Source: Emticicia sp. BO119 (lineage in GTDB: Bacteria > Bacteroidota > Bacteroidia > Cytophagales > Spirosomataceae). Taken from it: DNA of 64,000 nucleotides. The notes under the pieces were generated by a model. The model was not told the origin of the DNA. It searched no databases and saw nothing but the letters and a program-made list of their open reading frames with translations. Position numbers and translations under genes: made by a program. Location: NCBI RefSeq assembly GCF_013912375.1, contig NZ_JACETV010000009.1, positions 186,001-250,000 on the forward strand. Direction: 5' to 3'. Positions 42,450 to 63,803 of this stretch are shown here, in pieces. The first letter of the stretch is position 1, and every line of letters begins with the position of its first letter.

Positions 42450-42461
42450 AAATCGAAAAAC

Positions 42462-43025: not shown

Positions 43026-43027
43026 AT

Positions 43028-44089: not shown

Positions 44090-44137
44090 CGATAACCTTA
44101 AAATAAAATACTATTAAATCATAAAATAATTCAAACA

Positions 44138-44491
44138 ATGAAACCGACCATTTTTTCAGTTTTAGCAATCTCATTTTTTTCAATTTTCAGCCTGGCATTT
44201 AAAGCAGACCCACCTTCACAGGTAAAAATCAAAACATCTGCTATTTGCGAAATGTGTAAAGAGCGCATAGAAAAGCAGTTAGCTTTTACCAAAGGAGTTT
44301 CTGAGTCTAATCTTGATTTAATGGATAAAGTGGTAACCATTACTTTTAATCCGAAAAAAACAGATATTTCAAAATTAAAAAAAGCGGTAAATGATGCTGG
44401 CTATGATGCAGATGAAACAATAGCTAACGAAAAAAGCTACAACAAGCTTCCGTCTTGTTGTAAAAAAGACGGAGAACCTATGCATAATTAA
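44138..44491 (+). CDS. Secreted HMA-domain protein
   Basis: 117 aa. A signal peptide (SIFSLAFKA) precedes a heavy-metal-associated domain with the CxxC in AICEMCKERIEKQLAF (about 38-53) and ends in VNDAGYDAD. The tail carries PSCCKKDGEPMHN, another Cys pair. It would act as a periplasmic copper chaperone between the receptor and the other island proteins. It is in the operon between the propeller and the DUF2911-DUF3347 gene. Confidence 0.85.
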   Translation: MKPTIFSVLAISFFSIFSLAFKADPPSQVKIKTSAICEMCKERIEKQLAFTKGVSESNLDLMDKVVTITFNPKKTDISKLKKAVNDAGYDADETIANEKSYNKLPSCCKKDGEPMHN

Positions 44492-44523
44492 AATTAATCA
44501 GTCAATCTTTAAATAGTAGAGTC

Positions 44524-45906: not shown

Positions 45907-45916
45907 CTTTTCGAAG

Positions 45917-45955
45917 CCAAAGGAATTCTGTTTTCATTCTTAAGGATTCCTTTGG
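45917..45955 (+). terminator. Hairpin after the DUF2911-DUF3347 gene
   Basis: CCAAAGGAAT (45917-45926) and ATTCCTTTGG (45946-45955) are perfect 10-base arms with a 19-base loop. It lies just after the stop codon and before the separate P-ATPase promoter, so it likely ends the upstream operon, though no long T-run follows. Confidence 0.5.
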
Positions 45956-45974
45956 TTCTCCTAAAAAACTCTAC

Positions 45975-45990
45975 CTGAAAATTATATAAA
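45975..45990 (+). promoter_or_regulatory. Copper-island motif copy upstream of copA
   Basis: CTGAAAATTATATAAA, identical to the copy at 39638. A -7 element TACCTTTG (46033-46040) begins about 42 bases downstream and the P-ATPase ATG is at 46062. Confidence 0.55.
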
Positions 45991-46061
45991 TCAATGCAAA
46001 CAGGCTATAAGCAGGTTTGTTCTCTTTCTCTATACCTTTGTTCTATCAAAATATTTAGACA

Positions 46062-48485
46062 ATGGATAAAAATAAAAATATTACTTTAGAGATACCTCTT
46101 GAAGGGGTGGAAAGTGAACATTGCGCCTTGATTGTAGATAAGGGTTTGAGCAAAGTTCAAGGTGTATTAAGCCATAAAGTTGAATTAAATAATAACAAGG
46201 CTGTCATTACTTCATCTCCTGATAACAGCATCCTTACAAATGCAGTCAAAGAAATAAGGGATTTAGGCTATGATGTAACCACCGTAAAAAAGAATCTCGC
46301 AGTTTCAAATATGACTTGCGCCAGTTGCGCCAGTAGTGTTCAGAGTATTCTTGAAAATCAGGAAGGAGTTATTAGTGCAAACGTCAATTATGCCAATGCA
46401 ACTGCACACATAGAGTATATCCCGACACTTGTAGATGCAAATCAGTTAAAAGCAGCATTGCAGTCTATAGGATATGACCTTTTAGTGGACGAAAGCGAGG
46501 AGGCGAAAGATGAATTGGAAAAAGCCAGAGAAAAAAACTTTGACTTATTAAAGAAAAAAACGCTTTGGTCGATTATTCTTTCAATCCCTGTTGTTGCTAT
46601 CGGCATGTTTTTTATGAGCATCCCATATAGCAATTATATTATGTGGGCATTATCTACCCCCGTTCTTTTTGTTTTTGGCAAGCAGTTTTTTGTAAATGCC
46701 TGGAAACAGGCTAAGCATCGTTCAGCTAATATGGACACGCTGGTTGCTTTAAGCACGGGTGTTGCTTATTTATTCAGTATATTCAATACCGTTAATCCTG
46801 AATACTGGCATGAAAAAGGATTACATGCCCACGTATATTTTGAAGCAGCAGCAGTAGTCATTTCTTTTATTCTATTAGGTAAATGGCTCGAAGAAAAGGC
46901 TAAAGGGAATACTTCATCCGCCCTGAAAAAATTGATGGGGCTACAACCCAAAACAGTTACTATTGTGCATGAAGGTGGGCATCAATTGCAGGTTCCTATT
47001 CATAGTATTAAAATTGGTGACATCATTCTCGTGAAGCCCGGTGAAAAAATAGCAGTAGATGGTGAAATCGTAAGCGGTGTTTCTTTTATAGACGAAAGTA
47101 TGTTAAGCGGAGAACCAATTCCCGTAGAAAAAGCAACAAAAGACAAGGTTTATGCGGGTACAATCAATCAGAAAGGGAGTTTTCAGTTTAAAGCCATCAA
47201 AGTTGGAAGTGATACTATTCTGGCGCAGATTATTAAGATGGTTCAAGAGGCACAAGGTAGTAAAGCTCCTGTACAAAAATTAGTTGATAAGATTGCAGGG
47301 ATATTCGTCCCAATTGTTATTCTTATTGCCATTATCACCTTTTTTACCTGGCTCATATTTGGTGGTGAAAATGGTCTGACACAAGGCTTATTAACAATGG
47401 TAACAGTTCTGGTAATTGCCTGTCCATGTGCTTTAGGTTTGGCTACTCCCACTGCGATCATGGCAGGAGTTGGAAAAGGCGCAGAAAATGGGATACTTAT
47501 TAAAGACGCTGAAAGCCTCGAATTAGCAACTAAAATAAAAGCGGTGGTCTTGGACAAAACAGGAACTATAACTGAAGGCAAGCCTGCTGTAACCAATATA
47601 TATTGGAAAAACGAAAATCAAACAAACAGTGTTGCGTTAGTTTCAATAGAAAAGCAGTCTGAGCATCCGTTAGCGGAAGCGGTGGTGAAATACTTTAAAG
47701 ACACTTTTCCTGCACCAGTACATCATTTTGAAAGCATTACTGGATTCGGTGCAAAAGCGATGGTAGCAGATGAGTTATATTTTGTAGGAAATGAGAACTT
47801 ACTTATCAACAAAAAGATAAAGATTGATGCTCAATTAAAAGCAAAGGCTGATCAATGGCTCGGGGAGGCAAAGACAGTTATTTGGTTTGCCAAGTCAGAT
47901 GAAGCGTTAGCAGTAATCGCTATTGAAGACCAAATAAAGAAAACGTCTATAGAAGCTATTAAGAACTTACAATCTCAGGGGATAAAAGTCTATATGCTTA
48001 CAGGGGATAATCCTAAAACTGCTGCATCCGTGGCTAAAATGGCCGGAATAACAGATTTCAAGGCAGAAGTATTGCCTTCTCAGAAGTCTGACTTCATTAA
48101 AGAGATACAGAAACAGGGAAATGTGGTCGCAATGGTAGGAGATGGCATCAATGACAGCAATGCGCTGGCTCAGGCAGATGTCAGCATTGCAATGGGAAAA
48201 GGGAGTGACATAGCAATGGATGTAGCGAAAATGACTATTATTTCATCTGACTTAACGAAAATTCCACAAGCTATTAAATTGTCGAAAATTACGACTTTGG
48301 CTATAAAGCAAAATCTGTTTTGGGCATTCATTTATAACCTTATTGGCATTCCCATCGCCGCTGGTGTTCTCTATCCCTTTAATGGTTATTTGCTCAATCC
48401 CATGATTGCGGGGGCAGCAATGGCCTTGAGTTCTATCTCTGTAGTAAGTAACAGTCTTAGACTCAGAAGTAAAAGTTTACAATGA
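46062..48485 (+). CDS. copA: Copper-translocating P-type ATPase
   Basis: 807 aa. An N-terminal HMA-like fold (about 8-75) has lost the CxxC and keeps only one Cys (SEHCALIV). The second HMA has MTCASC (C86, C89). P1B-ATPase motifs are present: SGEPIPVEK (TGES-type actuator), [14 protein letters not shown] (the CPC of Cu(I) pumps), [18 protein letters not shown] (HP motif), TGDNPKTA and [20 protein letters not shown]. It exports Cu(I) from the cytoplasm. Its own promoter carries the 16-bp motif, and a small chaperone gene follows. Confidence 0.93.
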
Positions 48486-48521
48486 ATATCAAATAACACA
48501 ATATAAATTAAATTTAGAAAA

Positions 48522-48734
48522 ATGGAAAATCAAGCATTCAAAACAAATATTAATTGTAGTGGCTGTGTTGCAAGGGTAACAAATAAACTGAATGAAACTG
48601 TAGGGAAAGATAATTGGCAGGTAAACACTGAAAATCCGGATAAGATACTGACCATTACTCATTCAGATGTTCCAACTGAAAACGTAATCGAGGCGGTAAA
48701 AAGCGCAGGTTTTAAAATTGAAGCGATAAATTAA
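48522..48734 (+). CDS. HMA-domain copper chaperone
   Basis: 70 aa, a stand-alone heavy-metal-associated domain with NCSGCVARV (CxxC at about residues 11-14) and the C-terminal AGFKIEAI beta strand. No signal peptide, so it is cytosolic. It should deliver Cu(I) to the P-ATPase encoded 36 bases upstream, as CopZ/Atx1 proteins do. Confidence 0.88.
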   Translation: MENQAFKTNINCSGCVARVTNKLNETVGKDNWQVNTENPDKILTITHSDVPTENVIEAVKSAGFKIEAIN

Positions 48735-48788
48735 ATCTTCAAATAAGATTTACCAAGCAAATAATCAAACATTATAACTAATTAAACA

Positions 48789-49255
48789 ATGAAAAATGTA
48801 ATCTTAACACTCTCCCTCATTTTGATTTCAATGATGAGCGTATTGGGCCAGAAATCAACTAATTTAATCCCTAAAGTTGATTCAAAAGGTCATATTTATT
48901 ATGAAAGAAAACATATTGGTACTTTAACTTCAGACGGAAGCTTAGACCATACCGGAAAGGCCATTACCAAAGTAGATGCTAACGGCAATATTAAGGATAA
49001 TACTGGTAAAGTAGTTGGTAAAGCTCCGAAAAATGGCACGTTCGTTTATTATATTAATGGAACTGAGGAAAATTATACCGTTGGTAAAGAGTTGGTAAAG
49101 CATCTCACACAGGAATGTGCGAAGTAAAAAATGCAAAAGGAGAAATAGTGATGTTGCTACACGATAATTACAAACAGCAGGCAGCCTGTGCTGTACATTG
49201 CTTGTATGAAAATCACTGTATGCCTGCTGATAGAATGGCAGGGCATAAACATTAA
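48789..49255 (+). pseudogene. Secreted repeat protein, frame-shifted by an 11-bp tandem duplication
   Basis: The first frame (48789-49127, 112 aa) has a signal peptide (SVLGQ) and repeats of the kind GHIYYERKHIGTLTSDGSLDHTGKAITKVDANGNIKD. It ends abnormally as ELVKHLTQECAK. GTTGGTAAAG occurs twice, at 49080-49089 and 49091-49100, an 11-base tandem duplication. Removing one unit restores a longer reading frame TVGKASHTGMCEVKNAKGEI..., which continues with QQAACAVHCLYENHCMP to a stop at 49253-49255. The lost tail has the Cys/His residues. The function of the family is unknown to me. Confidence 0.7.
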
Positions 49256-49306
49256 ATATGAATCATTATTAAACAGAGGTAATATAAGGTTATCTCTGTT
49301 GTGCTT

Positions 49307-49957
49307 ATGAAGAAGAAAGAATTTATCCCTGCATTAGGCTACGATTTTCTGACAGCTTATTATGATTTAGTTGTCAAGCTGACTATGCCTGAAAAAAAGT
49401 TCAGGTCAATTTTGGTAAAAGAAATAAACCCCATGCCAAATGAAAAAATCCTGGAGTTTGGTTTTGGAACAGGTCAGAATTTACTGCTCGTAAAAAAACT
49501 TTGCAAAAATGTAGATTTGAAAGGCGTTGATATTGATTCTAAAGTAAAACAAATCGCTCAATTTAAGTTAGAAAAAAATGCAGTAGAAGCACAATTAGAC
49601 TTATACGATGGAGAAGCATTACCTTATAAGGATGCGTGTTTTGACAAAGTTTATAGTTGTCTTGTCTTTCATCAATTAACTCAGGAAAACAAATTAAAAT
49701 GTTTAAATGAGATTTTTAGAGTCCTAAAGCCAAACGGTACGTTAATTATTACTGACTGGGGAAAAGCTGCCAATTCTATTATGCGAATAACCTTTGCCTT
49801 GGTACAAATATTGGATGGATTTAAAACGACCAATGATAATGTTAAAGGAAACATGCCTTTATTTATAAAAGAAGCAGGGTTCGATAATTTAGCAATTCCA
49901 ATATCTCTAAATACTCTCATTGGTACGCTGTCTTATTTTATCTTTCACAAAAAGTGA
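49307..49957 (+). CDS. Class I SAM-dependent methyltransferase
   Basis: 216 aa from ATG 49307; a GTG at 49301 is the alternative. The SAM-binding motif is ILEFGFGTGQNLLLVK (about residues 47-62), with VDIDSK as motif II and FDKVYSCLVFHQL as the post-motif. UbiE/Methyltransf_11-like. The substrate is unknown. It is located inside the copper island, where similar methyltransferases are sometimes found; the link to copper is not clear. Confidence 0.85.
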   Translation: MKKKEFIPALGYDFLTAYYDLVVKLTMPEKKFRSILVKEINPMPNEKILEFGFGTGQNLLLVKKLCKNVDLKGVDIDSKVKQIAQFKLEKNAVEAQLDLYDGEALPYKDACFDKVYSCLVFHQLTQENKLKCLNEIFRVLKPNGTLIITDWGKAANSIMRITFALVQILDGFKTTNDNVKGNMPLFIKEAGFDNLAIPISLNTLIGTLSYFIFHKK

Positions 49958-50051
49958 AAAGGTATTTTTATTCTCAAAACATGGATTACTAATATCTATA
50001 TTTTTGGCACTATGCAGGGGTATTTCTTTTAATCTGAAAAATTTGGAATAA

Positions 50052-50795
50052 ATGGCAAAAAGCAAACATTATTATATCCGAAAATCTCATAGATATTTAG
50101 GCATTATCCTAGGTATCCAATTCCTTTTTTGGACATTAGGTGGATTATATTTTAGTTGGTCTGATATGGATGAAATTCATGGGGATCATCATAAAACCAG
50201 TATTCACCCTATTAGTGGCGACATTCCATTGGCAAACCTTTCTGATATTCTGCAAAAAGTTAAAATAAATGATACTGTTAGCTATATTCTGGATATTCGT
50301 TTGATTCAGATTTTAGGTGAGCCGTTCTATCAAATCTCATATTCAAAAGAGCATGACAGCCCGAAGAGGATAAAATTAGCTCATGCTATTTCTGGAAAAC
50401 TACGTGCCGAGCTTTCTGAGAAAGAAGCATCCAAGGTTGCTCAATTGAGTTTCGCGGATAAAGCCAAAATAAAATCAACTCAATACTTAACGACTGTTGA
50501 CAATCATCACGAATATCGGGGCCAACCTCTCCCAGCCTATGCCATCACATTTGAGCATCCTTCAAATACCACTGTTTATGTGAGTACCGAATTAGGCACA
50601 GTCCAGAAATTCAGAAATCATAAATGGCGTATTTTCGATTTTTTATGGATGTTACATACAATGGATTATCAGGGTCGTGATAATATTTCTAACTGGCTGT
50701 TAAAAGCTTTTTCAATTTTTGGATTATTCACTATCCTTTCAGGATTTATATTGTTTTTTATAAGTACCAAGAGAACAAAAAAGCTATTGGGCTAG
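50052..50795 (+). CDS. PepSY-domain membrane protein
   Basis: 247 aa with two membrane helices: about 14-33 (YLGIILGIQFLFWTLGGLYF) and about 216-240 (FSIFGLFTILSGFILFFIS), framing a periplasmic PepSY region (about 35-200). This is the short PepSY_TM type, annotated as iron-regulated or PiuB-like. It precedes the multicopper oxidase and may assist metal reduction or transfer at the inner membrane; the exact activity is unknown. Confidence 0.82.
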   Translation: MAKSKHYYIRKSHRYLGIILGIQFLFWTLGGLYFSWSDMDEIHGDHHKTSIHPISGDIPLANLSDILQKVKINDTVSYILDIRLIQILGEPFYQISYSKEHDSPKRIKLAHAISGKLRAELSEKEASKVAQLSFADKAKIKSTQYLTTVDNHHEYRGQPLPAYAITFEHPSNTTVYVSTELGTVQKFRNHKWRIFDFLWMLHTMDYQGRDNISNWLLKAFSIFGLFTILSGFILFFISTKRTKKLLG

Positions 50796-50934
50796 TAATC
50801 TGTTTTCGTTTCTTTTTTTGATTATATATATTCTAAAAATTAGTATGATAGAAACATTAAAAAATATTACAATAGAGTATTACATTTCTGGAAAGGTAAG
50901 TGTTGAGATTCATTTCTCACATTACTCAGGTAAA

Positions 50935-53235
50935 ATGAAATACTTTTTAATATGTGCTTTTCTATTTATCTCAGGTTCACTTTTTGCACAGCACGAAAAT
51001 CATAACATCTCTATACCTAATAAGGTTATTACTGTACCTAAGGCAAGAGAAGACAAAAACATTCAAAAGGCAAACAATACAGCCCAAACAGTAAGGTATG
51101 ACCTGTACATCCGTGATTCCCTTGTAAATTATTCGGGTAAACAGAAAAGGGCTATAGCTGTAAATGGGCAAATCCCAATGCCTACATTGACTTTTACCGA
51201 AGGTGATACAGCCGAAATATATGTACATAATGAACTTAATGAAATGACCTCTTTACACTGGCACGGGGTATTCCTGCCAAATAAAGAAGATGGTGTCCCT
51301 TATCTTACTCAAATGCCCATAAAGCCTAAAACAACTTATCTATACAAGTTTCCTATAATTCAAAATGGTACACATTGGTACCATAGTCATTCAGGCTTAC
51401 AAGAGCAAATAGGTATGTATGGCAGTTTTGTTATGAACAAACGTCCTGATGACCCAACATTTAGAAAAGGAATAGACGACTTACCCACAGTCCCAATTAT
51501 TTTGAGCGAATGGACAGATTATAAGCCAGAAAATGTTCATAGAATGCTGCATAATGCGACCGATTGGTTTGCTATCAAGAAGGGGACTACTCAAAGTTAT
51601 GGCGAGGCAATCAATCAAGGATACTTTGGAGTAAAACTTAAAAATGAGTGGAAACGCATGAATGCGATGGATGTAAGCGATGTTTATTACGATAAGTTCC
51701 TAATAAATGGCAAGAATGAAAATACTCTTTCACAGTTTAAAGGAGGAGATAAAGTCCGTTTAAGAGTATCTAATGGCGGAGCCTCTACCTATTTCTGGCT
51801 TAAATATGCAGGTGGGAGAATTACAGTTGTTGCCAGTGATGGTAATGATGTTGAGCCTGTTGAGGTCGACAGATTGATTATCGCTGTTTCTGAAACGTAT
51901 GATATTATTGTTACCATTCCCGAGAATGGCATGAGCTATGAGTTTTTAGCAACTGCTGAAGATCGGACTAAATCCACATCACTGTGGATAGGTGAAGGTA
52001 TGAAGATGAAAACGCAGCCCATGCCTAAACTGAAATATTTTGAAGGTATGAAAATGATGAATGATATGATGAATATGGACGGAAGTATGGATGATATGGG
52101 CATGAGTATGAGCTTGAACCAGATGGATATGAATGCTGTCATGTATCCGGAAATAACAGGTAGCAATACGAAAGAAATGAATATGGCTGATATGAGTCAT
52201 CAATCACATCAACAGCCAGGCAATATAGTTACACTTAATTACGCCATGCTCAAATCACCTGTAAAAACTTCATTACCTGTCGGAAATTCTAGAATATTAA
52301 AATTTGAATTAAGCGGAAATATGAATCGTTACGTTTGGAGTCTGGATAACAAAGTCGTTTCTGAAGCAGACAAAATATTGATAAAGAAAGGTGAAAACGT
52401 AAAACTGATTCTTTCTAACGGCTCTATGATGCGTCACCCTATGCACTTACATGGGCATGACTTCAGAGTTATCAATGGGCAGGGAAAATATGCTCCTCTT
52501 AAAAATATTATTGATATTATGCCGATGGAAACCGATACACTAGAGTTTAATGCGAATGTCGAGGGAGATTGGTTTTTTCACTGCCATATTCTCTATCACA
52601 TGATGAGTGGCATGGGGCGCGTTTTTACCTATGAAAACCAAGCGCCAAATCCACTCATAGAAAATCCTAAACTGGCACGCAGAAAGTTAAACTCTGACGA
52701 TCGACGATTTCATTTTATGGCCGAAAATGATTTTGCCACTAATGGAAACGATGGGATGATAATGCTCCAGAACACCCGCTGGAGCATTGGTACAGAATGG
52801 AGATTAGGTTACAACAATATGCATGGCTACGAAACCGAAACACATATTGGTCGTTATATAGGCAAAATGCAATGGTTTATGCCTTTTATAGGTTTTGATT
52901 GGAGATATAGGAAATTTGGAATCAATGAAGTTGAGCGGAATATTTTTAAACAATCTAATACAAAGGATAACCGTAGTCTTTTGAGCCTTGGCTTTAACTA
53001 TACATTACCCATGCTGATACACTTTCAATCCGAAGTATTTACTGATGGGAATGTACGCTTGCAATTATCGAGAGAAGATATTGCATTAGGGAAAAGATTA
53101 AGAGGCATGTTTATGATAAACACCGATAAGGAGTTTATGGGAGGCTTTGATTATATTGCAACAAGAAATATTAGAGCCAGAATTCACTATGATAGTGATA
53201 TGGGTCTCGGTTTGGGTGTAGTTTTTAATTATTAA
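50935..53235 (+). CDS. Multicopper oxidase with Met-rich insert and CopB-like C-terminus
   Basis: 766 aa from ATG 50935, chosen for its signal peptide (SGSLFAQ). Copper ligand motifs are all present: HWHGVFLPN, HWYHSHSG, HPMHLHGHDF and HCHILYHMMSGM. A Met-rich segment (about 350-415, GMKMMNDMMNMDGSMDDMGMSM) suits Cu(I) binding as in CopA/CueO. The last 130 residues (TRWSIGTEWRLGYNN to GLGLGVVFNY) form barrel-like strands reminiscent of the outer-membrane protein CopB, so the protein looks like a CopA-CopB type fusion. It would oxidise Cu(I) in the periplasm. Confidence 0.88.
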   Translation: MKYFLICAFLFISGSLFAQHENHNISIPNKVITVPKAREDKNIQKANNTAQTVRYDLYIRDSLVNYSGKQKRAIAVNGQIPMPTLTFTEGDTAEIYVHNELNEMTSLHWHGVFLPNKEDGVPYLTQMPIKPKTTYLYKFPIIQNGTHWYHSHSGLQEQIGMYGSFVMNKRPDDPTFRKGIDDLPTVPIILSEWTDYKPENVHRMLHNATDWFAIKKGTTQSYGEAINQGYFGVKLKNEWKRMNAMDVSDVYYDKFLINGKNENTLSQFKGGDKVRLRVSNGGASTYFWLKYAGGRITVVASDGNDVEPVEVDRLIIAVSETYDIIVTIPENGMSYEFLATAEDRTKSTSLWIGEGMKMKTQPMPKLKYFEGMKMMNDMMNMDGSMDDMGMSMSLNQMDMNAVMYPEITGSNTKEMNMADMSHQSHQQPGNIVTLNYAMLKSPVKTSLPVGNSRILKFELSGNMNRYVWSLDNKVVSEADKILIKKGENVKLILSNGSMMRHPMHLHGHDFRVINGQGKYAPLKNIIDIMPMETDTLEFNANVEGDWFFHCHILYHMMSGMGRVFTYENQAPNPLIENPKLARRKLNSDDRRFHFMAENDFATNGNDGMIMLQNTRWSIGTEWRLGYNNMHGYETETHIGRYIGKMQWFMPFIGFDWRYRKFGINEVERNIFKQSNTKDNRSLLSLGFNYTLPMLIHFQSEVFTDGNVRLQLSREDIALGKRLRGMFMINTDKEFMGGFDYIATRNIRARIHYDSDMGLGLGVVFNY

Positions 53236-53692: not shown

Positions 53693-54967
53693 ATGCCCAA
53701 AAACACATTGCACCTTTTATCTGCTTTGCAAATTGAGCGTTTATCTCATTCAGACAATGATAAGATGTTTAATGATGGCGGAGGGCTTTATCTCTTTGTC
53801 CGTCACTATGGAGAGAAAGAATGGATTTTTCGGTACACCTCTCCGATTACCAAACAACGCCGTAAACAGTCTTTGGGGTCTTTTAGAGACACTAATTTAA
53901 AGCAAGCAAGAGTTTTAGCTTCTCAAAAACGTACCTTGCTTGAATCTGGCCTTGATCCTTTAATTGAAGCAGATAAACAACTCCAAAAGGAAACAAAAGA
54001 ATTAGCTAAAAGAAAAAGGCTGCAAGGAAATACCGTCAGAAATGTATTTCAAGCATGGAAACAAAATGAATTGCAGAACAGGAAAGACAATGGCAAAGAA
54101 ATCAAACGGGCCTTTGAGAAAGATGTCTTTGCCGTTATTGGTGATTTACCTATCAATGAAGTAACCAGACAAGAGATAAGAAGTATTTTAGAACGTCTGA
54201 CTAAACGAAAATCCAAAAGCATGGCGAACCGACTGCTTGCTAATCTCAAACAGTTTTTTGGTTATGCTGAGGATGAAGAATTAATCAATCTTGATCCAAC
54301 CAGACGTTTGACCAAAGAACGAGTCGGAGGCAAGGAAAAATCACGCAAAAGGTATTTAGAGGAACAAGAACTGACTCTATTAAAAGAGTTATTGCCTCAA
54401 TCAGGTTTAAGAACAGAGTATGAAGCCTTAATTTGGTTTCTACTATCTACAGGATGCCGGGTCAATGAAGCCTTACGTGCTAAATGGGAACATTTTGATA
54501 TATCCAGAAGAATGTTTGTCATTCCTGCTGAACATGCCAAGAATACCTTGAAACATAATATCTATCTGTCAAGGTTTGCTTTGAAACAGTTAATTATTCT
54601 GAAAAAAACAAGAACAACCCAATACCTTGTTCCTAATCGCAAATCAGATGGGCCGATTACCCGTCAGGTATTGACCAAACAGGTTACGGATAGGCAACAA
54701 GAACCCTCTGAAAAAAACAGGGTACATAACCCACAGGCATTGGTACTACCGAAAGGTCGTTGGGTCATTCATGATCTCAGACGTACTGCCGGAACTATTA
54801 TGCAGGAATTGGGGATTATGCCGCATATTATCAAGAAATGTCTCAACCAAAAAATTGAAGATAAAATCATTGAAACCTATCAACGTGCCTCCCTCATTTA
54901 TGAACAGAAAGAAGCCTTTGAAAAATTAGGGCAATATTTATTGGCTATTGGGCAAAAGAAAAAGTAG
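53693..54967 (+). CDS. Tyrosine integrase with DUF4102 arm domain (P4-type)
   Basis: 424 aa. The N-terminal DUF4102 domain is seen in DNDKMFNDGGGLYLFVRHYGEKEWIFRYTSPITKQRRKQSLG (about 19-60). A core-binding domain follows, then the catalytic domain with Arg in STGCRVNEALRAKW and HDLRRTAGTIMQELG, and Tyr in IETYQRAS. The position that is usually the second His appears as Gln in CLNQK. The start has a GAGGAG site. It would act on the tRNA-Val site immediately upstream. Confidence 0.92.
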   Translation: MPKNTLHLLSALQIERLSHSDNDKMFNDGGGLYLFVRHYGEKEWIFRYTSPITKQRRKQSLGSFRDTNLKQARVLASQKRTLLESGLDPLIEADKQLQKETKELAKRKRLQGNTVRNVFQAWKQNELQNRKDNGKEIKRAFEKDVFAVIGDLPINEVTRQEIRSILERLTKRKSKSMANRLLANLKQFFGYAEDEELINLDPTRRLTKERVGGKEKSRKRYLEEQELTLLKELLPQSGLRTEYEALIWFLLSTGCRVNEALRAKWEHFDISRRMFVIPAEHAKNTLKHNIYLSRFALKQLIILKKTRTTQYLVPNRKSDGPITRQVLTKQVTDRQQEPSEKNRVHNPQALVLPKGRWVIHDLRRTAGTIMQELGIMPHIIKKCLNQKIEDKIIETYQRASLIYEQKEAFEKLGQYLLAIGQKKK

Positions 54968-56796: not shown

Positions 56797-57270
56797 ATGA
56801 ATTACGCACAACTCAAATCCTTATACCGGGTTTCAGAAATCGGGATTCATTATAAATACAAAGTTCCTTATAAAGACAGAGTCCATATAAATTCGCCCTC
56901 CGTTGCCTATGATGTGCTCAGATTGGCATGGGATCAGAATAAGATTGAACTCCTGGAACAGTTCAAAATCCTGCTGCTCGACAACAGAAGTAATTGTCTG
57001 GGATTGGTCGATATAGCTTCCGGCAGCATCAATAGTTGTATTGTCGATACAAGACTCCTGTTTTCTGCGGCATTAAAAGCAAAAGCCAGCGGAATTATTC
57101 TCGCTCATAACCACCCGTCAGGAAGCCTGACTCCCAGTGAAAATGACAAAAAACTGACTGAAAAAATCTGTGAGGGAGGTAAGATTTTAGATATTGCCAT
57201 CTTCGACCACCTCATTGTTTCTCCGCAAAGTTATTATTCCTTCGCTGACAACGGTCTGATGCCCAAATAG
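56797..57270 (+). CDS. radC: RadC/JAB-domain protein, copy 1
   Basis: 157 aa. The JAMM motif is complete: LAHNHPSGSLTPSENDKKLT with the upstream Glu in IELLEQFKILLL, and FDHLIVSPQSYYSFADNGLM at the end. RadC-like JAB proteins are frequent in conjugative elements; their role is uncertain and the old DNA repair link is disputed. Start with a GGAAA site 10 bases after the Toprim-like gene. It is about half identical by eye to copy 2 at 58.6 kb. Confidence 0.9.
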   Translation: MNYAQLKSLYRVSEIGIHYKYKVPYKDRVHINSPSVAYDVLRLAWDQNKIELLEQFKILLLDNRSNCLGLVDIASGSINSCIVDTRLLFSAALKAKASGIILAHNHPSGSLTPSENDKKLTEKICEGGKILDIAIFDHLIVSPQSYYSFADNGLMPK

Positions 57271-57324
57271 CAATCAATCATTTGCACTTTTTTATTGAGT
57301 CTTTCCCACCAAAGGACAGATGCC

Positions 57325-58206
57325 TTGCAGACTTTTCACAGAATTATTCAGGGTGATTGCAGACAGATGAGTGAGGTAGCTGATAGTTCTGTTCATCTAA
57401 TCGTAACATCTCCCCCTTACTGGAACATCAAAGACTATGGGACTATAGAGCAGATTGGCTTCTATCAGAGTTTTGAAGATTATATCAATCATCTCAACCT
57501 GGTCTGGAAAGAATGCCACCGTACCCTGATGGATGGTTGCAGGCTGTGTATCAATATTGCTGATACTTTATCCAGCAAAGCTATTTATGGGCGTAATAAG
57601 GTAGTGGCAATCCACACAGAAATTATCAAGTTCTGTGAGATTATCGGCTTTGACTATATGGGATCCATTATCTGGCAGAAAATCGGCAATGACAAAGGTG
57701 TCTTTTTAGGGTCTTATCCCTTTCCCAGAAACGGGGTCATACAGATAGACTACGAGTACATTCTTGTATTCAGAAAATCAGGGAAAAGCCCTCAACCCAC
57801 CCTATCACAAAAAGAGTTTTCAAAAATGACTTTGAAGGAATGGCAGAAATACTTTGCAGGACATTGGAATTTTCCGGGAACGCTCCAGAATAAGGGACAC
57901 ATAGCTATGTTCCCTCAGGAACTCCCCAAAAGATTAATCCGCATGTTCAGTTTTATAGGGGAAACGGTGCTTGATCCTTTTGGCGGCAGCGGCACAACCG
58001 CCTTGGCGGCCAAAAATAACGGCAGAAATTCTATCTCCTATGAAATCAGTCCTGATTACACAGAAATTATTAAAGACAAACTGCAAACGTATCAGGGTGA
58101 TTTATTCGGGACAAGTTTTGAGTTTATTCAGCAACAAGCAGATGCAATAGATTTTGCTGATATGATTTCAAAACTGCCTTATCTTTTCAAAGACCCACAC
58201 GCATGA
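57325..58206 (+). CDS. Orphan DNA methyltransferase (N4/N6 type)
   Basis: 293 aa from TTG 57325, chosen because AAAGGA at 57311-57316 stands 8 bases before it; the frame opens at TTG 57295. The catalytic motif is TSPPYWNIKDYG (SPPY suggests N4-cytosine or the beta class). The SAM motif DPFGGSGTTALAAKNNGRNSISYEI lies at the C-terminus, so it is of the beta architecture. No restriction gene is adjacent. In the leading part of a conjugative element it likely protects incoming DNA from host restriction. Confidence 0.85.
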   Translation: MQTFHRIIQGDCRQMSEVADSSVHLIVTSPPYWNIKDYGTIEQIGFYQSFEDYINHLNLVWKECHRTLMDGCRLCINIADTLSSKAIYGRNKVVAIHTEIIKFCEIIGFDYMGSIIWQKIGNDKGVFLGSYPFPRNGVIQIDYEYILVFRKSGKSPQPTLSQKEFSKMTLKEWQKYFAGHWNFPGTLQNKGHIAMFPQELPKRLIRMFSFIGETVLDPFGGSGTTALAAKNNGRNSISYEISPDYTEIIKDKLQTYQGDLFGTSFEFIQQQADAIDFADMISKLPYLFKDPHA

Positions 58207-58583
58207 CAGGCCACCTGATTATGCTTCTTTAAAAACTTACTCCCGTAAAAAGGCAAAGGGGACAAATGTGCCCCCGATGAACCCAAAACAACTTTTGCTG
58301 TGACTAAAAAAGGTTACAAATTTCACTACTTCTGTACGCAGATGCAAGTAAAAAATTACTATTTTCTTCATCAAATTCCTGTTCCGGCTGTTCTTATGTT
58401 CCTTAGTTGGTGGTGGTTTGATGCTGTCAGCCTGGCTCAAAGAGTGGAGATGACGCTTATCCCTCTTTTTTTACTAATAAAAAAAGCTCGTCCCTGCGAC
58501 TCACTCCTTCGGAGTTCGGGGAGCTATCTCCATTCTTTGAGCCTTTTTTGCTGCCATCATCCACCACCCACAAAGGAGACCTA
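58207..58583 (+). ncRNA. Structured noncoding repeat, copy A, upstream of radC-2
   Basis: This intergenic stretch contains a large foldable block (58409-58568). The outer stem is GGTGGTG/CACCACC (58409-58415 with 58562-58568). The main stem is GGCTCAAAGAGTGGAGAT (58434-58451) with ATCTCCATTCTTTGAGCC (58526-58543), 18 pairs with one wobble. Inside are two hairpins, an A/T-rich one (CTTTTTTT/AAAAAAAG) and ACTCC-TTC-GGAGT. TATCCC and GGGGAGC may pair as a further stem. A run of six T follows the main stem. The AAAGGAG site of radC-2 comes 3 bases after the outer stem. A related copy is at 60.07 kb. Whether it acts as RNA or single-stranded DNA is open. Confidence 0.55.
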
Positions 58584-59063
58584 ATGATGAACGGCCAGCT
58601 TTTCCCTGAAATATTTCAGGTGGCAGAAATCGAAATCAGTTACCGCAATACTACCCCTTTCAACGAACGAATTTTGGTCAATAAATCTCAAAGTGCTTAT
58701 GAAATTCTGAATGCTTCATGGGATAAAGATAAAATAGAATTGGTTGAGCAATTCAAAATCCTTTTACTCAATCGGCAAAATCATTGTCTGGGAATTGTCA
58801 ACCTCTCTACAGGTAGCTCCTTTGGTACGCCAGTTGACCCACGATTGGTTTTTGCCGCTGCCTTGAAAGCCAATGCTACCGCTCTTGTTCTTGCTCACAA
58901 CCATCCTACAGGCAACGTATCACCAACCAATGATGATATTGTTACTACAAAAAGCCTTGCCAAGGCAGCAGAATTATTCGGCATAGCCATATTTGACCAT
59001 CTTATTCTCTCCAAAGACGGGTTCTTTTCTTTTGGAGCCAATGGGCTTTTGCCTAAAAAATAA
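58584..59063 (+). CDS. radC: RadC/JAB-domain protein, copy 2
   Basis: 159 aa from ATG 58584, with AAAGGAG at 58572-58578 (a second ATG follows at once). JAMM motif: LAHNHPTGNVSPTNDDIVTT, with Glu in IELVEQFKILLL and FDHLILSKDGFFSFGANGLL at the end. It is a paralogue of the 56.8 kb copy, and a structured repeat lies directly before it. The duplicate probably serves a distinct step or timing in transfer. Confidence 0.9.
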   Translation: MMNGQLFPEIFQVAEIEISYRNTTPFNERILVNKSQSAYEILNASWDKDKIELVEQFKILLLNRQNHCLGIVNLSTGSSFGTPVDPRLVFAAALKANATALVLAHNHPTGNVSPTNDDIVTTKSLAKAAELFGIAIFDHLILSKDGFFSFGANGLLPKK

Positions 59064-59101
59064 ATTCAAACAACCAATTTACCCTTAACCGGAGGTCAGG
59101 A

Positions 59102-59992
59102 ATGAACCAAACCAATGACATTTATACCCGTATCACCAATAAAATTCTGGCCGACCTTGAAAAAGGCGAACTGACATGGCGAAAGCCCTGGAATAGTGCA
59201 CATTTATCTGAAAACATCCAGCGTCCTTTGCGCTGGAATAATATCCCTTATACAGGCATTAATACCGTTGTTTTATGGGCAACGGCAGCAGAAAAAAGTT
59301 ATGACTTGCCGCATTGGATGACCTTCAATCAGGCAGTGGATTTGAAAGCATCAGTCCGCAAAGGAGAAAAAGGTACACAAATCATTTATGCAGACCAGCT
59401 ATTGAAAGAAGAAGAAGACAAGCATGGTGAAAAACAAATCATTCAGATTCCTTTCCTGAAATCCTACACCGTCTTTAATGCCCATCAGATTGAAGGGTTG
59501 CCGGAACATTTTTATACAACTGCTGAACCTGTCCCGATTAATATACCCCAACGAATGGAGGCTATAGAAACTTTTTTTACACAAACAAAGGCTGATATTC
59601 GTAAAGGCTATAAGGCAGCTTATTATATTGGTGAGGACTATGTAGATATGCCGCCCATTGAAAGTTTTGAAACAGCCAAAGATTATTATGCGGTGTTGGC
59701 CCATGAGGTAACTCATTGGACACGACACCCGAAACGCCTCAACCGGGATTTTGGTCGTAAACAATGGGGTGATGAAGGCTATAGTAAAGAAGAACTCGTG
59801 GCCGAATTAGGTGCCTGTTTTCTGGCTGCTGATTTAGGTTTTGAACCCATGCCGGAGGAGAAGCATGCCGCTTACATCCAATCCTGGTTACAGGCATTGC
59901 AGGATGATAAAAAACTCATTGTCTTTGCTGCTTCCTATGCTCAGAAAGCCACCGAATATCTGCATAGTCTGCAAAGTCCGGTACTGTTCTAA
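59102..59992 (+). CDS. ardC: ArdC-like antirestriction protein with zincin metallopeptidase domain
   Basis: 296 aa with an excellent GGAGG site. The N-terminal half is the ArdC ssDNA-binding domain: NDIYTRITNKILADLEKGELTWRKPWNS, YTGINTVVLW, DLPHWMTFNQA, VRKGEKGTQIIY. The C-terminal half is a zincin-like peptidase with HEVTHW (HExxH) and later KEELVAELGACFLAADLG. ArdC proteins counter host type I restriction during conjugation and coat incoming ssDNA. It stands among methyltransferase and RadC genes. Confidence 0.9.
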   Translation: MNQTNDIYTRITNKILADLEKGELTWRKPWNSAHLSENIQRPLRWNNIPYTGINTVVLWATAAEKSYDLPHWMTFNQAVDLKASVRKGEKGTQIIYADQLLKEEEDKHGEKQIIQIPFLKSYTVFNAHQIEGLPEHFYTTAEPVPINIPQRMEAIETFFTQTKADIRKGYKAAYYIGEDYVDMPPIESFETAKDYYAVLAHEVTHWTRHPKRLNRDFGRKQWGDEGYSKEELVAELGACFLAADLGFEPMPEEKHAAYIQSWLQALQDDKKLIVFAASYAQKATEYLHSLQSPVLF

Positions 59993-60268
59993 ACAAACAG
60001 AAGAGTGGCTATTTCAGGTTTTGTTGCTTTGGGTAAGTACACAAATTATCTTTTGTTTATGGGTGATTGAATGCTGTCAGCCTGGCTCAAACGCTGTGCC
60101 TGCGCTTATCCCTTATTTTACTTTGTAAAATAATCCCGGAGTGAACACTCTGCGACTCCTGACAAAAAATAGACGGCAAGCATCGATTTTTTGTCATTCG
60201 GGGAGCTACCACTGCTTTTCGAGCCTTTTTCGCTGCCATCATCAACCACAAACAAAGGAGATTTGCTG
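59993..60268 (+). ncRNA. Structured noncoding repeat, copy B, after ardC
   Basis: The block 60071-60257 repeats boxes of copy A in the same order: ATGCTGTCAGCCTGGCTCAA, GCTTATCCCT, TGCGACTC, TTCGGGGAGCTA, GAGCCTTTTT, GCTGCCATCATC and ACAAAGGAGA. Sequence between boxes differs but stems are kept: main stem GGCTC/GAGCC continued by CGCTGTG/CACTGC, inner hairpin TTATTTTAC/GTAAAATAA, and a second hairpin GACAAAAAA/TTTTTTGTC. It ends just before the AAAGGAG site of the next small gene. Confidence 0.55.
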
Positions 60269-60481
60269 ATGACAAACCCAACCGAAACCAATAAAAAATA
60301 TCCCACACACCAGATTTTTCTGGTTACGCCCATTCCGGGTAGTGAAAAGTCCAATTGGCTAAAAGTTGCGGCCGTTTGGGCAAACAAAGACGGTAAAGGG
60401 TTTAATATTGTCCCTGAACATCCTATTACCTCCGGTGGAAAATATGTTATGAGACCGTATAGCCCCAAAACCGATAAGTAA
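60269..60481 (+). CDS. Small element protein, DUF736-like
   Basis: 70 aa from ATG 60269 with AAAGGAG at 60254-60260. The core HQIFLVTPIPGSEKSNWLKVAAVWANKDGKGFNIVPEHPI resembles the short proteins of conjugative elements related to DUF736 (W..IGAAW.NKDGKG..I). No catalytic motif. It is preceded by the copy B repeat, so it likely belongs to the early-expressed leading genes. Confidence 0.55.
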   Translation: MTNPTETNKKYPTHQIFLVTPIPGSEKSNWLKVAAVWANKDGKGFNIVPEHPITSGGKYVMRPYSPKTDK

Positions 60482-60488
60482 TAAAATC

Positions 60489-60526
60489 AGGCTAGGCAGA
60501 TTGATTCTGCCTAGCCTCAACTTTTT
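60489..60526. terminator. Bidirectional intrinsic terminator
   Basis: AGGCTAGGCAGA (60489-60500) and TCTGCCTAGCCT (60506-60517) are perfect 12-base arms with a 5-base loop, followed on the plus strand by CAACTTTTTT. It separates two convergent genes and ends both leading-region and relaxase-operon transcripts. Confidence 0.9.
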
Positions 60527-60900
60527 TCTTCTATCTGTATCTCCGTTACCACCGTTTCTGCCTCTTCCGCATATCTTTCATCTACCTGATAAATAAACTG
60601 TGGCAACTGCTTTTTAAAGGCTAAAAATAAGGAGGTTAAACCATAGCCGAAAAGTGTGATCAGTTTGGAGGGTAATTCAATGATCATAGTATTCTTTTCT
60701 TGGCCTATCCTGAATTGGGTATGCACCACATACGAATAAGGGAAATCATCCATATTCCCGTCTTTCCACACCAGACAGAAATTACGGATCGAGCCTTCAC
60801 TCGCATAAAAGGCAGAAGTATCATCTTGTGAAGTTGACCCCGATTGACCCGGATTATTTTCCTTCATCTGGTCAAAACGCAGTTTATAATTTTGGCTCAT
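60517..60900 (-). CDS. Hypothetical protein downstream of the relaxase
   Basis: 127 aa, not recognised. One hydrophobic stretch (about 77-96, IIELPSKLITLFGYGLTSLFLA) could be membrane-associated. The C-terminus is acidic (EEAETVVTEIQIEEK). Its start overlaps the relaxase stop by 17 bases, so it is translated with it. A role in transfer is inferred only from the operon position. Confidence 0.65.
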   Translation of the reverse strand: MSQNYKLRFDQMKENNPGQSGSTSQDDTSAFYASEGSIRNFCLVWKDGNMDDFPYSYVVHTQFRIGQEKNTMIIELPSKLITLFGYGLTSLFLAFKKQLPQFIYQVDERYAEEAETVVTEIQIEEKS

Positions 60901-63634
60901 AAGGCTTATCTTTATTCGGTGCTGGTTTCCTGTCTCCTTTCTGTGGGTTCTTTGGAGTTGTCTTAGGCATCTCCCTGTTGATTTTGTCCCGGATTTGCTG
61001 ATGAATTAAATCGGTATTCGATTTGCCACTCACTAGTTCTATGGCTGACTGGCGATTTCCCAGCTTTGAAGCATGTTCCATTAATTCCTGTTTCTTGTCT
61101 GTATAAATCTTCACGCCTTCCTTGCCCCTTGAAACCGACACATAAAACTGTTTGGAACTGGTGGCCGGAAAGGTAGCGGCAGGTTGAGCAATCAGCACCT
61201 GATCTACACTCTTTCCCTGTGAAGCATGGGAGGTAATACAATACGCATGGGATAAATGTCCGAAGTCCTGATTGATTTCATACTCGGTTTTGCTTATGAC
61301 ATTTCGTAGTTGAATTTTGCCTGAATTACTGACCTTCAATACTTCAAACATTTGTCCGTTGAGCAGGTCTTTCTTTTGCAGATCGAAGCCATTCCGGGTA
61401 ACACGAACAATATCTTTCCGGGCTATCGGAATGAAACTTTTTTCATAGACTTCGTAATCCTTGCTTTTTTCTGTAGGCAATATACGTGTTTCTTTGGCCT
61501 CATTCTGAATATGAACCCCCTTCTCTGTACATTCACTAATCGTCCACTGACTACCTCTTTTGATATGGGGCAGGTTCTGGTTAAACTGGATGACCTGACC
61601 TTCCTGCAAATTTCGCCAGTCGGCTTTTTGTGCTTCAGTCAAGTACAGGTTTCGCAGACGGGAAACATTCAGTTCTTTTTTGCCCAGCATGCCCGATGAT
61701 TTCATCTTTTGCCTCAGTGCTTCTGTTACTTCATCACTCTGTTGACGGGTCGGAGAAATCACTAAAGCTGTCTTTTTATTTTTTAGGGTGTCCAGATAAT
61801 CATTCACCAGCATTTCATAGGGCTTTTTCGGGTCTATTTCTTTGATAGCTCCCATGTCTTCCAGTTTTTCAAAAGCACTGGCCACATCTCCCACCGATAA
61901 ATCTTCTACGGCCTGTTTATAGACTTCATTCTTTTGCCGATAAATTTTACTGATTTCTGCGGTCTTGATTCCTGCCACTGTGTTCAAAATCCGTAAGGCA
62001 TCCCCTCTGTCAACGCTGGCATGCTGACGGGTATCTCCTACCAGAATCAACCGGGCATTCTGTTGGTCTGCTATCTCAAGCAGGTGGGTCATGTCTCTGG
62101 TTCCTAACATCCCTGCCTCATCGACAATCAATACCTGTCCTTTCAATTTATCCTGCATGTCCCTGTCTAGTTTCAAACGGCTGACAGTATCAGCCTGCTT
62201 AAATCCTGACTCCCTGAGTGTCCCTCTGGAAGCCTCACTTGAAGGCGCAATGATGGTGATGGTCTTACCTGTCTTTTCAAGCAAAGGGACCAGTTCCTGA
62301 AGGGTGGAGGTTTTTCCTGTTCCGGCTTTTCCGGTAACAATCGAAACCCGGTTGGTTGTGCTTAACACATGTTCAATGGCAGCTTTTTGTTCCCCTTGTA
62401 ATTTTGTTTCCGGTATTTTAGCATACAAGGGGCGTAATTTGCCAAAGCCCTGACGGGCCAGCCTGACCATTCTTTGTTCTTCTGCAAGCACGGCTTTCGT
62501 GGTGGTCATGAGTTTGCCTTTTTCTTCCACATGGATCAGCCGGGAATCCTGGGCAAAGTTTTCAGTAATTCCTTCTAATGAAACTTTTGCATGGCCTATG
62601 CTGTAGCGATAGGCAGAGGCCAACAGCCGTCTGTCTTGTAAGACGGATGCTCTTTCAAAACCATGCTGAACCGCAAAACCTATACAATGTTCCGGGGTCA
62701 GGAGGCGTTCTTCTTTCCGTTGGGCATAACGAATAACCGGATTTTCCTGCTTGCCTTCTTTTTCCGTATGCGCATGAATTTGTCTTCGCCATTCGATTGT
62801 CAGGTCTTCCATCGAATGGCCTTTCTGTTTTTTACTCCGGGTTCTGGCGCCTAATTCATCCAGTTCTTTTGCATCGGTAATGCCTTTTTCTTTCGCCACC
62901 CGACCGATTTCATCGGTACGTTTGGAGAACAGACCAATGACTGGTTTGGGTACTCCTTTGACTTCAAAAGAGGTTCGGGTGGCCTCAATCCCATATCCCA
63001 GATTATTCAGGTCATCGGACAGGTATTTCTGGAAACGTGCCTGATAATAAGGCATATCCCTTTTAATGTCCCGGAACTGGCAAGCCTTGATCCTTTGCTC
63101 TTGTTCATCCCAGGTCGCATTGAAGACAAAGCAATGGGCATGCAGGTGAGGGTCCGGCATCGACCCGTCAACAGGTCTTGCCGTCTGATGGGTGAAATCG
63201 ACCCACAGAAGCTCGCCAGTGGGTCTTTCTTCATCCCGGCCTCTGGTGCGTACCCTGGTCTTACTGTCCTGCTCCATGTCCTGCATGGTCGCTCTGACGC
63301 TTCTTTCAAAGGCTTGCAGGATATGGTCGTCTTTGGAGAGGACATGCAGGATAGAGACGGATTTCGGACAGTGGAAATTGATGTCATAGCCCACTGTCCG
63401 GTCGTCTTTCGTCCGGGGAGTCAAAGCCTTTCCGGTCGCCGGATTGATATTATCGCACAGGTCATTGAACAGGTCTTTATTGACCTGTCCTTTGATGCCT
63501 AAACGTTCAGCTAAAAGACCCTGTACTTTCCCCTGTAATTCCTGATCAGTGACATAGTAATCAGACCGGGAAAGTTCATCTTTGAAATAGGCTTTGGCAT
63601 GGGCGGCAGAACTGCTTTGTATCATCCGTATCAT
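60884..63634 (-). CDS. MobF-family conjugative relaxase-helicase (TrwC/TraI-like)
   Basis: 916 aa (or 913 from the second Met). The relaxase domain (about 1-290) has a Tyr pair (SDYYVTDQE, about 25-26) and the three-His motif PDPHLHAHCF (about 160-168). The C-terminal half is a RecD-type helicase: VTGKAGTGKTSTLQEL, VLIVDEAGMLGTRDM, LVGDTRQHASVDRGDA and ASQGKSVDQVL. It nicks oriT and unwinds the transferred strand. MobF relaxases are most common in Proteobacteria. It is on the strand opposite to the anti-defence genes, as expected if those lie in the leading region. Confidence 0.93.
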   Translation of the reverse strand: MIRMIQSSSAAHAKAYFKDELSRSDYYVTDQELQGKVQGLLAERLGIKGQVNKDLFNDLCDNINPATGKALTPRTKDDRTVGYDINFHCPKSVSILHVLSKDDHILQAFERSVRATMQDMEQDSKTRVRTRGRDEERPTGELLWVDFTHQTARPVDGSMPDPHLHAHCFVFNATWDEQEQRIKACQFRDIKRDMPYYQARFQKYLSDDLNNLGYGIEATRTSFEVKGVPKPVIGLFSKRTDEIGRVAKEKGITDAKELDELGARTRSKKQKGHSMEDLTIEWRRQIHAHTEKEGKQENPVIRYAQRKEERLLTPEHCIGFAVQHGFERASVLQDRRLLASAYRYSIGHAKVSLEGITENFAQDSRLIHVEEKGKLMTTTKAVLAEEQRMVRLARQGFGKLRPLYAKIPETKLQGEQKAAIEHVLSTTNRVSIVTGKAGTGKTSTLQELVPLLEKTGKTITIIAPSSEASRGTLRESGFKQADTVSRLKLDRDMQDKLKGQVLIVDEAGMLGTRDMTHLLEIADQQNARLILVGDTRQHASVDRGDALRILNTVAGIKTAEISKIYRQKNEVYKQAVEDLSVGDVASAFEKLEDMGAIKEIDPKKPYEMLVNDYLDTLKNKKTALVISPTRQQSDEVTEALRQKMKSSGMLGKKELNVSRLRNLYLTEAQKADWRNLQEGQVIQFNQNLPHIKRGSQWTISECTEKGVHIQNEAKETRILPTEKSKDYEVYEKSFIPIARKDIVRVTRNGFDLQKKDLLNGQMFEVLKVSNSGKIQLRNVISKTEYEINQDFGHLSHAYCITSHASQGKSVDQVLIAQPAATFPATSSKQFYVSVSRGKEGVKIYTDKKQELMEHASKLGNRQSAIELVSGKSNTDLIHQQIRDKINREMPKTTPKNPQKGDRKPAPNKDKPYEPKL

Positions 63635-63803
63635 ATACCATCGGATTTATACTCCACTACATGAACTATTTTGATAATTCGTTTGCTGATTAAACATGAG
63701 CTAACAAATGAGCGAGTGATTAACACTTGGGGCTGTCTTGTAAAACTGGCCGTCAATGGAATGCAGAAAGTATCAGACATCTTCCCTAAGGACAGCTTAG
63801 GTC

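Follow-up and report, generated by a model that had tools for sequence, protein, structure and literature searches.

Candidate single-stranded-DNA promoters in the predicted leading region of an integrative mobile element from Emticicia (Bacteroidota)

What might be the role of a large palindrome that recurs immediately upstream of genes in the predicted leading region of a mobile element, with its stems maintained while its sequence changes? This question is raised by a 64,000-nucleotide (nt) stretch of the genome of Emticicia sp. BO119 (assembly GCF_013912375.1, contig NZ_JACETV010000009.1, positions 186,001 to 250,000 of the forward strand; hereafter, the window, within which all coordinates are given) that contains two copies of such a palindrome, here denoted elements A and B. 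In the F plasmid, Frpo1 and Frpo2 are reported to form folded structures on the entering strand from which genes are expressed early and transiently, and expression from single-stranded DNA (ssDNA) has been worked out for F and, judging by cited titles, for ColIb-P9 (PMC9849209). We consider it probable, with modest confidence, that A and B are ssDNA promoters of an integrative mobile element, representing a Bacteroidota counterpart of the F Frpo that is unrelated to it in sequence. Among the titles found in the open-access literature, none describes single-stranded promoters in Bacteroidota.

Element A (58400..58576, plus strand in gene-strand coordinates, with the minus strand being the one that appears to fold) is an imperfect palindrome of approximately 177 nt with a three-way junction, the 3' end of which is the AAAGG of the ribosome-binding site of a RadC-domain gene. 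Element B (60049..60257, plus strand) is a copy of approximately 209 nt that has a longer apical hairpin (AAAAAATAGAC...GCATCGATTTTTT) and ends in the ribosome-binding site of a gene for a 70-amino-acid (aa) protein. The two copies had been described in an earlier note made from the sequence alone, and the stems quoted there are present, as is the AAAGGAGA site directly at the end of each copy (58572..58579 for the RadC-domain gene and 60254..60261 for the 70-aa gene, both on the plus strand). The extents given in that note, 58409-58568 and 60071-60257, turned out to be too short: the outer stem continues to the AAAGG of the ribosome-binding site, so that the elements span about 58400-58576 and 60049-60257. 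Both copies fold better than nearly all of their shuffles, with an RNA folding energy of -75.7 kcal/mol for A (z -7.9, equalled by 0 of 200 shuffles) and -57.1 kcal/mol for B (z -2.5, equalled by 1 of 200); each is a noncoding sequence of the predicted leading region that forms a stable hairpin in single-stranded form, as do Frpo and the ssi promoters of ColIb-P9.

A covariance model (R1) was built from 10 sequences, with A included and B held out, and detected the held-out B at 87 bits (E-value 4e-20). Within the host family, this model matched 54 copies (10 of which are its own training rows) in 35 of the 222 genomes, representing 10 of the 36 genera; besides Emticicia, the named carriers include Dyadobacter, Runella, Spirosoma and a Cytophagaceae metagenome-assembled genome. 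The covariance-model search proposed in the earlier note has yielded further copies located before genes of the predicted leading region. Searches across more than 40 genomes were run under stricter filters, so the counts for the broader samples are lower bounds: at least 15 of 390 genomes in the order sample contain a match, every one of them in the host family, and at least 3 of 395 genomes do so in the phylum sample, the third of these being a weak partial match in another family (23.7 bits, E-value 0.006) that we did not count. Nearly all the sequences analyzed below come from this single bacterial family and are related, so that the counts are not independent even once clustered. Neither the Rfam search of the whole window nor a local search gave anything credible, with no gathering score reached; a blastn search of A against 72,556 plasmid records (E-value 1e-5) found no match, a search of the sequence collections with the 3.2-kb region returned a single 52-base stretch of methylase sequence, shared with 2 phage records, and viral contigs showed no pattern match to the element. 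A related MobF locus from another family (L138) lacks both the element and the 70-aa gene. Judging from these searches and the 54 copies in the host family, A and B belong to a family that is absent from Rfam, in line with the novelty suggested by the earlier note.

In the consensus structure, the outer stem is followed by an AGC/GCT helix and then by a stem that is long and variable. Next come the conserved core, made up of CGCTTATCCC together with GGGGAGCT, and the junction, which carries two hairpins: an A/T hairpin and another whose length differs greatly among copies and which is aligned only roughly when long. The compensatory changes reported previously for the two copies extend to strong covariation in both sequence sets. 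Before any fitting to the structure, 13 of 43 pairs show two-sided changes among 10 MAFFT-aligned sequences, compared with 1-7 pairs for slid partners and 9.1 for shuffles, 5 of 500 of which reached 13. For all 54 sequences, 28 of 42 pairs (265 cells) show such changes, against 10-14 pairs (35-52 cells) for slid partners and 19.3 pairs (83.8 cells) for shuffles, in an alignment that was fitted to the structure and hence leans towards it. The outer stem that reaches the ribosome-binding site pairs better with its own arm than the mean of the arms from other clusters in 46 of the 54 elements (p 9e-7), and own pairing lies under the 5th percentile of other clusters' pairings in 14 of the 54. Many copies possess an extended apical hairpin (for example, 60161-60195 in the window) with a conserved internal loop, AAATAGAC...GCATCGATTT, the flanks of which vary yet pair.

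The position of the element relative to genes is equally constrained. The distance from the GGGGAGC box to the ribosome-binding site is 45-50 nt (standard deviation 1.1, n=51; 2 of the 54 elements remained unparsed, and a few values, namely, 3'-arm lengths of 6 and 7 and one of -95, are parsing slips), and the parsed length of the apical part ranges between 39 and 149 nt. A repeat of the miniature inverted-repeat transposable element (MITE) type unrelated to gene starts, which the earlier note had allowed for, is hard to reconcile with this fixed spacing. The broader possibility of a recombination or transposition repeat, attC- or MITE-like and spread by single-strand recombination, has some appeal given that attC sites also fold on one strand and that A precedes a RadC gene in the window, with A-type copies of contig C3 of the same genome and of E. 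agri preceding a methylase gene. Nevertheless, no integron-type integrase was noted among the 20 proteins scanned, and all 4 copies in the Emticicia sp. BO119 genome sit within two mobile elements of this kind; we regard such an origin as highly improbable.

Two or three copies of the element are present in 8 of the 45 loci, where the same kind of element precedes unrelated genes within one locus, that is, it behaves as a regulatory sequence would. These extra copies before different genes, together with the location of the copies directly before gene starts (53 of the 54 have a gene) at a fixed distance from the ribosome-binding site (51 measured), also bear on a second alternative, namely, that the element is an initiation site of the ssi/sso kind, at which primer RNA for second-strand synthesis would be made on the folded entering strand and gene expression would be incidental. 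Such a priming site predicts the same strand and geometry as an ssDNA promoter, and a nearby gene encodes a 240-aa protein (p240) with a weak match to Toprim_2 (E-value 0.16); considering the placement of the copies, we deem it unlikely.

The choice between an ssDNA promoter and an RNA leader, both of which the earlier note had put forward, depends on which strand folds. The simple test applied here compares, in conserved stems, A.C with G.T cells on the gene strand: A.C on the gene strand is G.T on the other strand, so that an excess of A.C indicates that the minus strand keeps wobble pairs in the drifting stems. The comparison was restricted to pairs with a Watson-Crick share of 70% or more, which 35 of the 42 reach; among the 7 pairs below this threshold is an invariant T.G (columns 48/190), and the flanked count leaves this pair out by name as well. 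These well-paired columns contain 65 A.C and 21 G.T cells on the gene strand. Reducing the sequences to 24 clusters gives 47 and 18, respectively (p 4e-4 for a departure from 1:1), and when both neighboring pairs are Watson-Crick, the counts are 33 and 5 (22 and 5 by cluster). The A.C share of 0.756 was reached by none of 2000 column-preserving shuffles (mean 0.611, largest 0.665). Given that the alignment was derived from a gene-strand model, bias, if any, should favor G.U on the gene strand. In strand-neutral fold counts, the A.C:G.T ratio was 37:9 under RNA energies and 21:7 under DNA energies; relative to their own shuffles, these 1x1 counts of the elements have p 0.015 (RNA) and, with more shuffles, p 0.02 (DNA) in one run. 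Cobalamin riboswitches from related genomes of the same family and order served as a control: 43 were detected in 38 genomes, and for the 30 accompanied by loci, which were the ones used, the strand-neutral count with RNA energies was 1:9 (Fisher p 5e-5 for 37:9 versus 1:9). Thus, the comparison of G.T and A.C in well-paired columns, which could serve for any conserved palindrome, here set the element apart from the riboswitches of related genomes, and the strand opposite to the genes, i.e., the minus strand, seems to be the one that folds. Composition-corrected folding energies of the full-length elements also favor the minus strand, in 40 of 54 (DNA) and 42 of 54 (RNA), as does the comparison with the shorter R1 boundaries in 38 of 54 (DNA, p 1e-4).

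These counts bear most directly on the possibility that the element is a structured leader of the sense mRNA, resembling a riboswitch or an attenuator, which controls translation at the ribosome-binding site at its base. The fixed distance to that site and the inclusion of its CAAAG part in the outer stem agree with a leader, and the sense strand also folds better than its own shuffles (mean z about -3.5). Selection on a sense RNA would, however, be expected to tolerate G.U more than A.C on that strand, and the well-paired columns show the reverse, in the direction opposite to the riboswitches with RNA energies (9 G.T, 1 A.C). Furthermore, the Bacteroidota promoter motif TAnnTTTG is not enriched upstream of the elements (1 occurrence at -200..-30 of the 54 loci versus about 2.2 expected), and a leader leaves the constant geometry relative to the origin of transfer, described below, unexplained. 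A sense RNA leader is therefore disfavored, and we assign it a low probability. Another alternative, that the structure belongs to a minus-strand (antisense) RNA, is compatible with the strand preference, which suits any folded minus strand; the oriT geometry would then be a coincidence, and we find this account quite improbable, albeit little tested, with the promoter and terminator search consisting of the TAnnTTTG scan only, which gave 11 minus-strand matches in the stretches around the 54 elements. Mutational bias through minus-strand deamination was considered as a cause of the A.C excess and is not supported. Such a bias should produce the same skew along the region, and the skews at fourfold sites on the element strand are opposite in the ArdC/RadC/p240 and the MobF segments (GC skew -0.17 and +0.06, AT skew -0.20 and +0.08, respectively), which is an argument rather than a full model.

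The other line of evidence for the minus strand comes from the predicted origin of transfer (oriT). Its core (63772..63801, minus strand) consists of the inverted repeat CCTAAG/CTTAGG followed by GAAGATGTCT/GAT, with the predicted nic between 63775 and 63774, such that the transferred strand runs leftwards on the minus strand; no such site is expected in shuffles of the window. The arrangement is reminiscent of R388, in which an inverted repeat is followed by the TATTGTCT/ATAG nic and the relaxase remains with the DNA fragment that lies downstream of the nick (PMC4814116): in both cases, an inverted repeat (IR2 in R388) lies 5' of a TGTCT/ nic-like site near the gene for a TrwC-type relaxase (GCGCACCGAAAGGTGCGTATTGTCT/ATAG in R388). 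The repeat sequence differs from that of R388, and the spacing between the proximal arm and TGTCT/ is approximately 10 nt here (for the predicted nic) compared with 8 in R388. Because TrwC is reported to act on an oriT that shows no obvious resemblance to its own (PMC4853378), oriT likeness is neither needed nor a proof. The site is conserved among the relatives: of the 43 regions upstream of MobF, 33 contain it (with 4 or fewer mismatches in 18), at a distance of 117-290 nt from the gene, and it is found anywhere in 37 of the 45 loci (with 3 or fewer mismatches in 18), compared with about 0.01 chance sites of that quality per 20-kb locus by our own arithmetic. This combination of an inverted repeat and a nic motif near the relaxase gene is that of a TrwC-type oriT.

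In 36 of the 37 loci with a site, the element is on the opposite strand and in the path of the strand that departs from the nic. The exception is L114, where the site with 3 or fewer mismatches belongs to a second MobF and the locus's own MobF has a 4-mismatch site; one further locus (L098) has an extra oriT-like site (3 mismatches) whose position is inconsistent with this geometry. In two loci (L089 and L092), MobF is encoded on the other side of the element, yet the position and direction of the oriT-like site (2 mismatches) with respect to the element are unchanged. With a TrwC-like oriT on the minus strand, the predicted transferred strand is the minus strand, i.e., the same strand that folds according to the pair counts, and these two lines of evidence rest on different sequences. 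By prediction, then, the folded strand, the transferred strand and the template of the downstream genes coincide, as they do for Frpo and ssi.

Under the ssDNA promoter model, the MobF relaxase would nick oriT at about 63775 and send the minus strand into the recipient, 5' end first. The 70-aa gene and the genes for ArdC, RadC and the methylase would all have this entering strand as their template, and on it A and B would fold into long hairpins, with the end of the stem at the ribosome-binding site of the next gene. RNA polymerase would use as a promoter the folded duplex, comprising a stem of constant length below the conserved GGGGAGC/GCTTATCCC core, and would start at the elements; transcription off the entering strand would precede the existence of the second strand, giving early, transient expression of proteins that might aid establishment. 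The spacer of an unusual promoter could be represented by the covarying stem of constant length that separates the core from the T-rich loop.

Several observations weigh against this model. Over all 42 pairs, there is no strand difference (90 G.T, 82 A.C), so that G.T is not rarer than A.C, as a sense RNA leader would allow; 45 of the 90 G.T cells represent the one invariant T.G core pair, without which the counts are 45 G.T and 82 A.C (observed/expected 0.43 and 0.57), and in our judgement this pair is part of the sequence-conserved internal loop of the core (TAT/G) rather than a drifting pair. The riboswitches yielded 0:0 cells with DNA energies, and in the run with this control, the DNA-energy count of the elements had p 0.35 against shuffles. 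With RNA energies and the shorter R1 boundaries, the minus strand is favored in only 29 of 54 elements (p 0.31), and element A of the window taken alone folds nearly equally on both strands (-43.4 plus, -43.9 minus). The riboswitches favor the sense strand in 23 of 30 cases with RNA energies (p 0.07) and lean antisense in 18 of 30 with DNA energies (p 0.07), so that the DNA-energy comparison does not discriminate; the strand argument is carried by the pair-by-pair counts, and the energies are a weak line. The relaxase gene is convergent with the leading genes here, unlike in F. Finally, no canonical -35/-10 boxes rebuilt by folding were found, nor was a consistent -10 in the elements. The conserved CTGACA has a sigma-70 score of 7.80 compared with 7.49 in shuffles (z 2.8 for the pair score). 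The Bacteroidota promoter pair TTTG/TAnnTTTG is not enriched in the elements either. We also considered, and discarded, the minus-strand sequence CTATTTTTG of the apical hairpin as a promoter box, as this hairpin is missing from many copies and the length of its A-tract varies.

As regards the choice left by the earlier note, the strand counts and the position of oriT favor a promoter over an RNA leader, the canonical boxes reported for Frpo were not found, and promoter activity is what we infer. With no detectable sequence shared with F and no canonical box pair, the claim is limited to function: the elements most likely work like Frpo, and we do not contend that they are Frpo. A more specific version, to which we give roughly an even chance, perhaps slightly less, is that they constitute an independently evolved Bacteroidota family of ssDNA promoters, unlike Frpo in both sequence and architecture, in which the host polymerase, perhaps with an element-coded factor, would read the folded entering strand via the conserved core and the sequence-free stem of constant length, without canonical -35/-10 boxes, and the two or three copies in some elements would form an entry regulon. 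If this is the case, early expression from ssDNA would be a recurrent solution, since a phylum whose promoters follow other sequence rules would have an unrelated design of its own, and the 54 natural variants could be used to learn what the polymerase needs on a hairpin.

Like Frpo1 and Frpo2 of F and the ssi promoters of ColIb-P9, the elements described here form, immediately ahead of early genes of the leading region, a long hairpin on the (predicted) transferred strand, are present in more than one copy per mobile element in some cases (8 of 45 loci), and share the leading region with methylase and anti-restriction genes (PMC9849209). They differ from Frpo and ssi in having a three-way junction, a Bacteroidota host and no canonical -35/-10 that we could find, whereas such boxes are reported for the F Frpo. 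Direct sequence homology was not detected: model R2 finds nothing in the 45-68 kb region of F at E-values up to 10. For comparison, two Frpo-like blocks in F, 88.8% identical to each other, were located through an alignment of the sequence preceding ssb with that preceding the pair of genes closest to oriT, which we take to be ygeA and ygeB (they are not named in the F record). These blocks end 20-21 nt before their genes, and they too fold better as the transferred strand than as the other strand by raw DNA energy (-118.2 versus -110.0 and -124.2 versus -112.8). The Frpo-like candidates of Samuel et al. 2024, which were found by BLAST to known Frpo/ssi combined with E. coli-type -35/-10 boxes, resemble the present elements in lying upstream of leading-region anti-defence genes that are oriented for transcription from the transferred strand (PMC11541004). 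The present family, in contrast, was found by a structure model and lacks the E. coli-type boxes, and the string "Bacteroid" is absent from the main text of that paper (PMC11541004).

The earlier note had placed each copy before an early conjugation gene; A precedes the RadC-domain gene, and B precedes the 70-aa open reading frame (ORF). A single small gene, the family of the 70-aa gene, directly follows 45 of the 54 copies (44 intact, including that of the window, and 1 truncated). Other genes follow 8 copies, namely, RadC once, the N6-methylase p265 twice and five genes without a clear family, one of which shows weak likeness to DUF736; in the remaining locus (L118), there is no gene behind the element. 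The recurrent gene order, in which many loci show gaps, is Int - AlpA - p240 - RadC - ArdC - element - small gene - p127 - MobF. The intact members (the window gene and 43 relatives) share the pattern PTHxVYxxK...W.K.GAAWEH.D..GLNLSL. There is no confident Pfam or NCBIfam match for this family, and weak DUF736 likeness was detected in 6 of the 33 scanned members (33 of 45 given; best E-value 0.016). The predicted fold of the 70-aa protein is one helix and a four-strand meander (pLDDT 78), with no PDB sequence match, no Foldseek hit at E-value 0.001 or better (best 0.22) and no relative in viral contigs. It may be an establishment or anti-defence protein, and the elements thereby point to unstudied establishment genes, this family above all.

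Within the window, the RadC-domain gene downstream of A (58584..59063, plus strand, start at 58584 or 58587; PF04002, E-value 1.5e-33) is followed by an ArdC-like anti-restriction gene (59102..59992, plus; PF08401, E-value 1.9e-36), element B and the 70-aa gene (60269..60481, plus), which is convergent with a 127-aa ORF (p127; 60517..60900, minus); the MobF (TrwC-type) relaxase-helicase gene comes next (60884..63634, minus; PF08751, E-value 4.9e-63). Upstream of A, on the same strand, are a DNA methylase gene (57295..58206; PF01555), a second RadC-domain gene (56797..57270) and the gene for the tyrosine integrase of the mobile element (53693..54967). The same genome contains another mobile element related to this one (contig C3, G000:C3 160000-179000, L006), which adjoins an Era-like GTPase gene and has two copies of its own, with the methylase p265 in place of the window's RadC behind element A.

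Just upstream of A, the window contains a noncoding stretch of approximately 66 nt (58243-58312, plus strand) in which a GGGGACA..TGTCCCC hairpin is followed by GATGAACCCAAAACAACTTTTGCTGTGACTAAAAAAG. There is no Rfam or tRNA match for this stretch, which is perhaps a small RNA or a terminator; similar copies are present in 11 of 11 searched genomes of the genus, and a host copy in the same genome (L146 1448-1515, minus strand) lies just past the 3' end of a 2-oxo-acid-dehydrogenase-like gene. To the left of the integrase gene (40224-53235), the cargo resembles metal-handling functions, including a heavy-metal ATPase, a multicopper oxidase and HMA-domain proteins, as judged from the ORF sequences.

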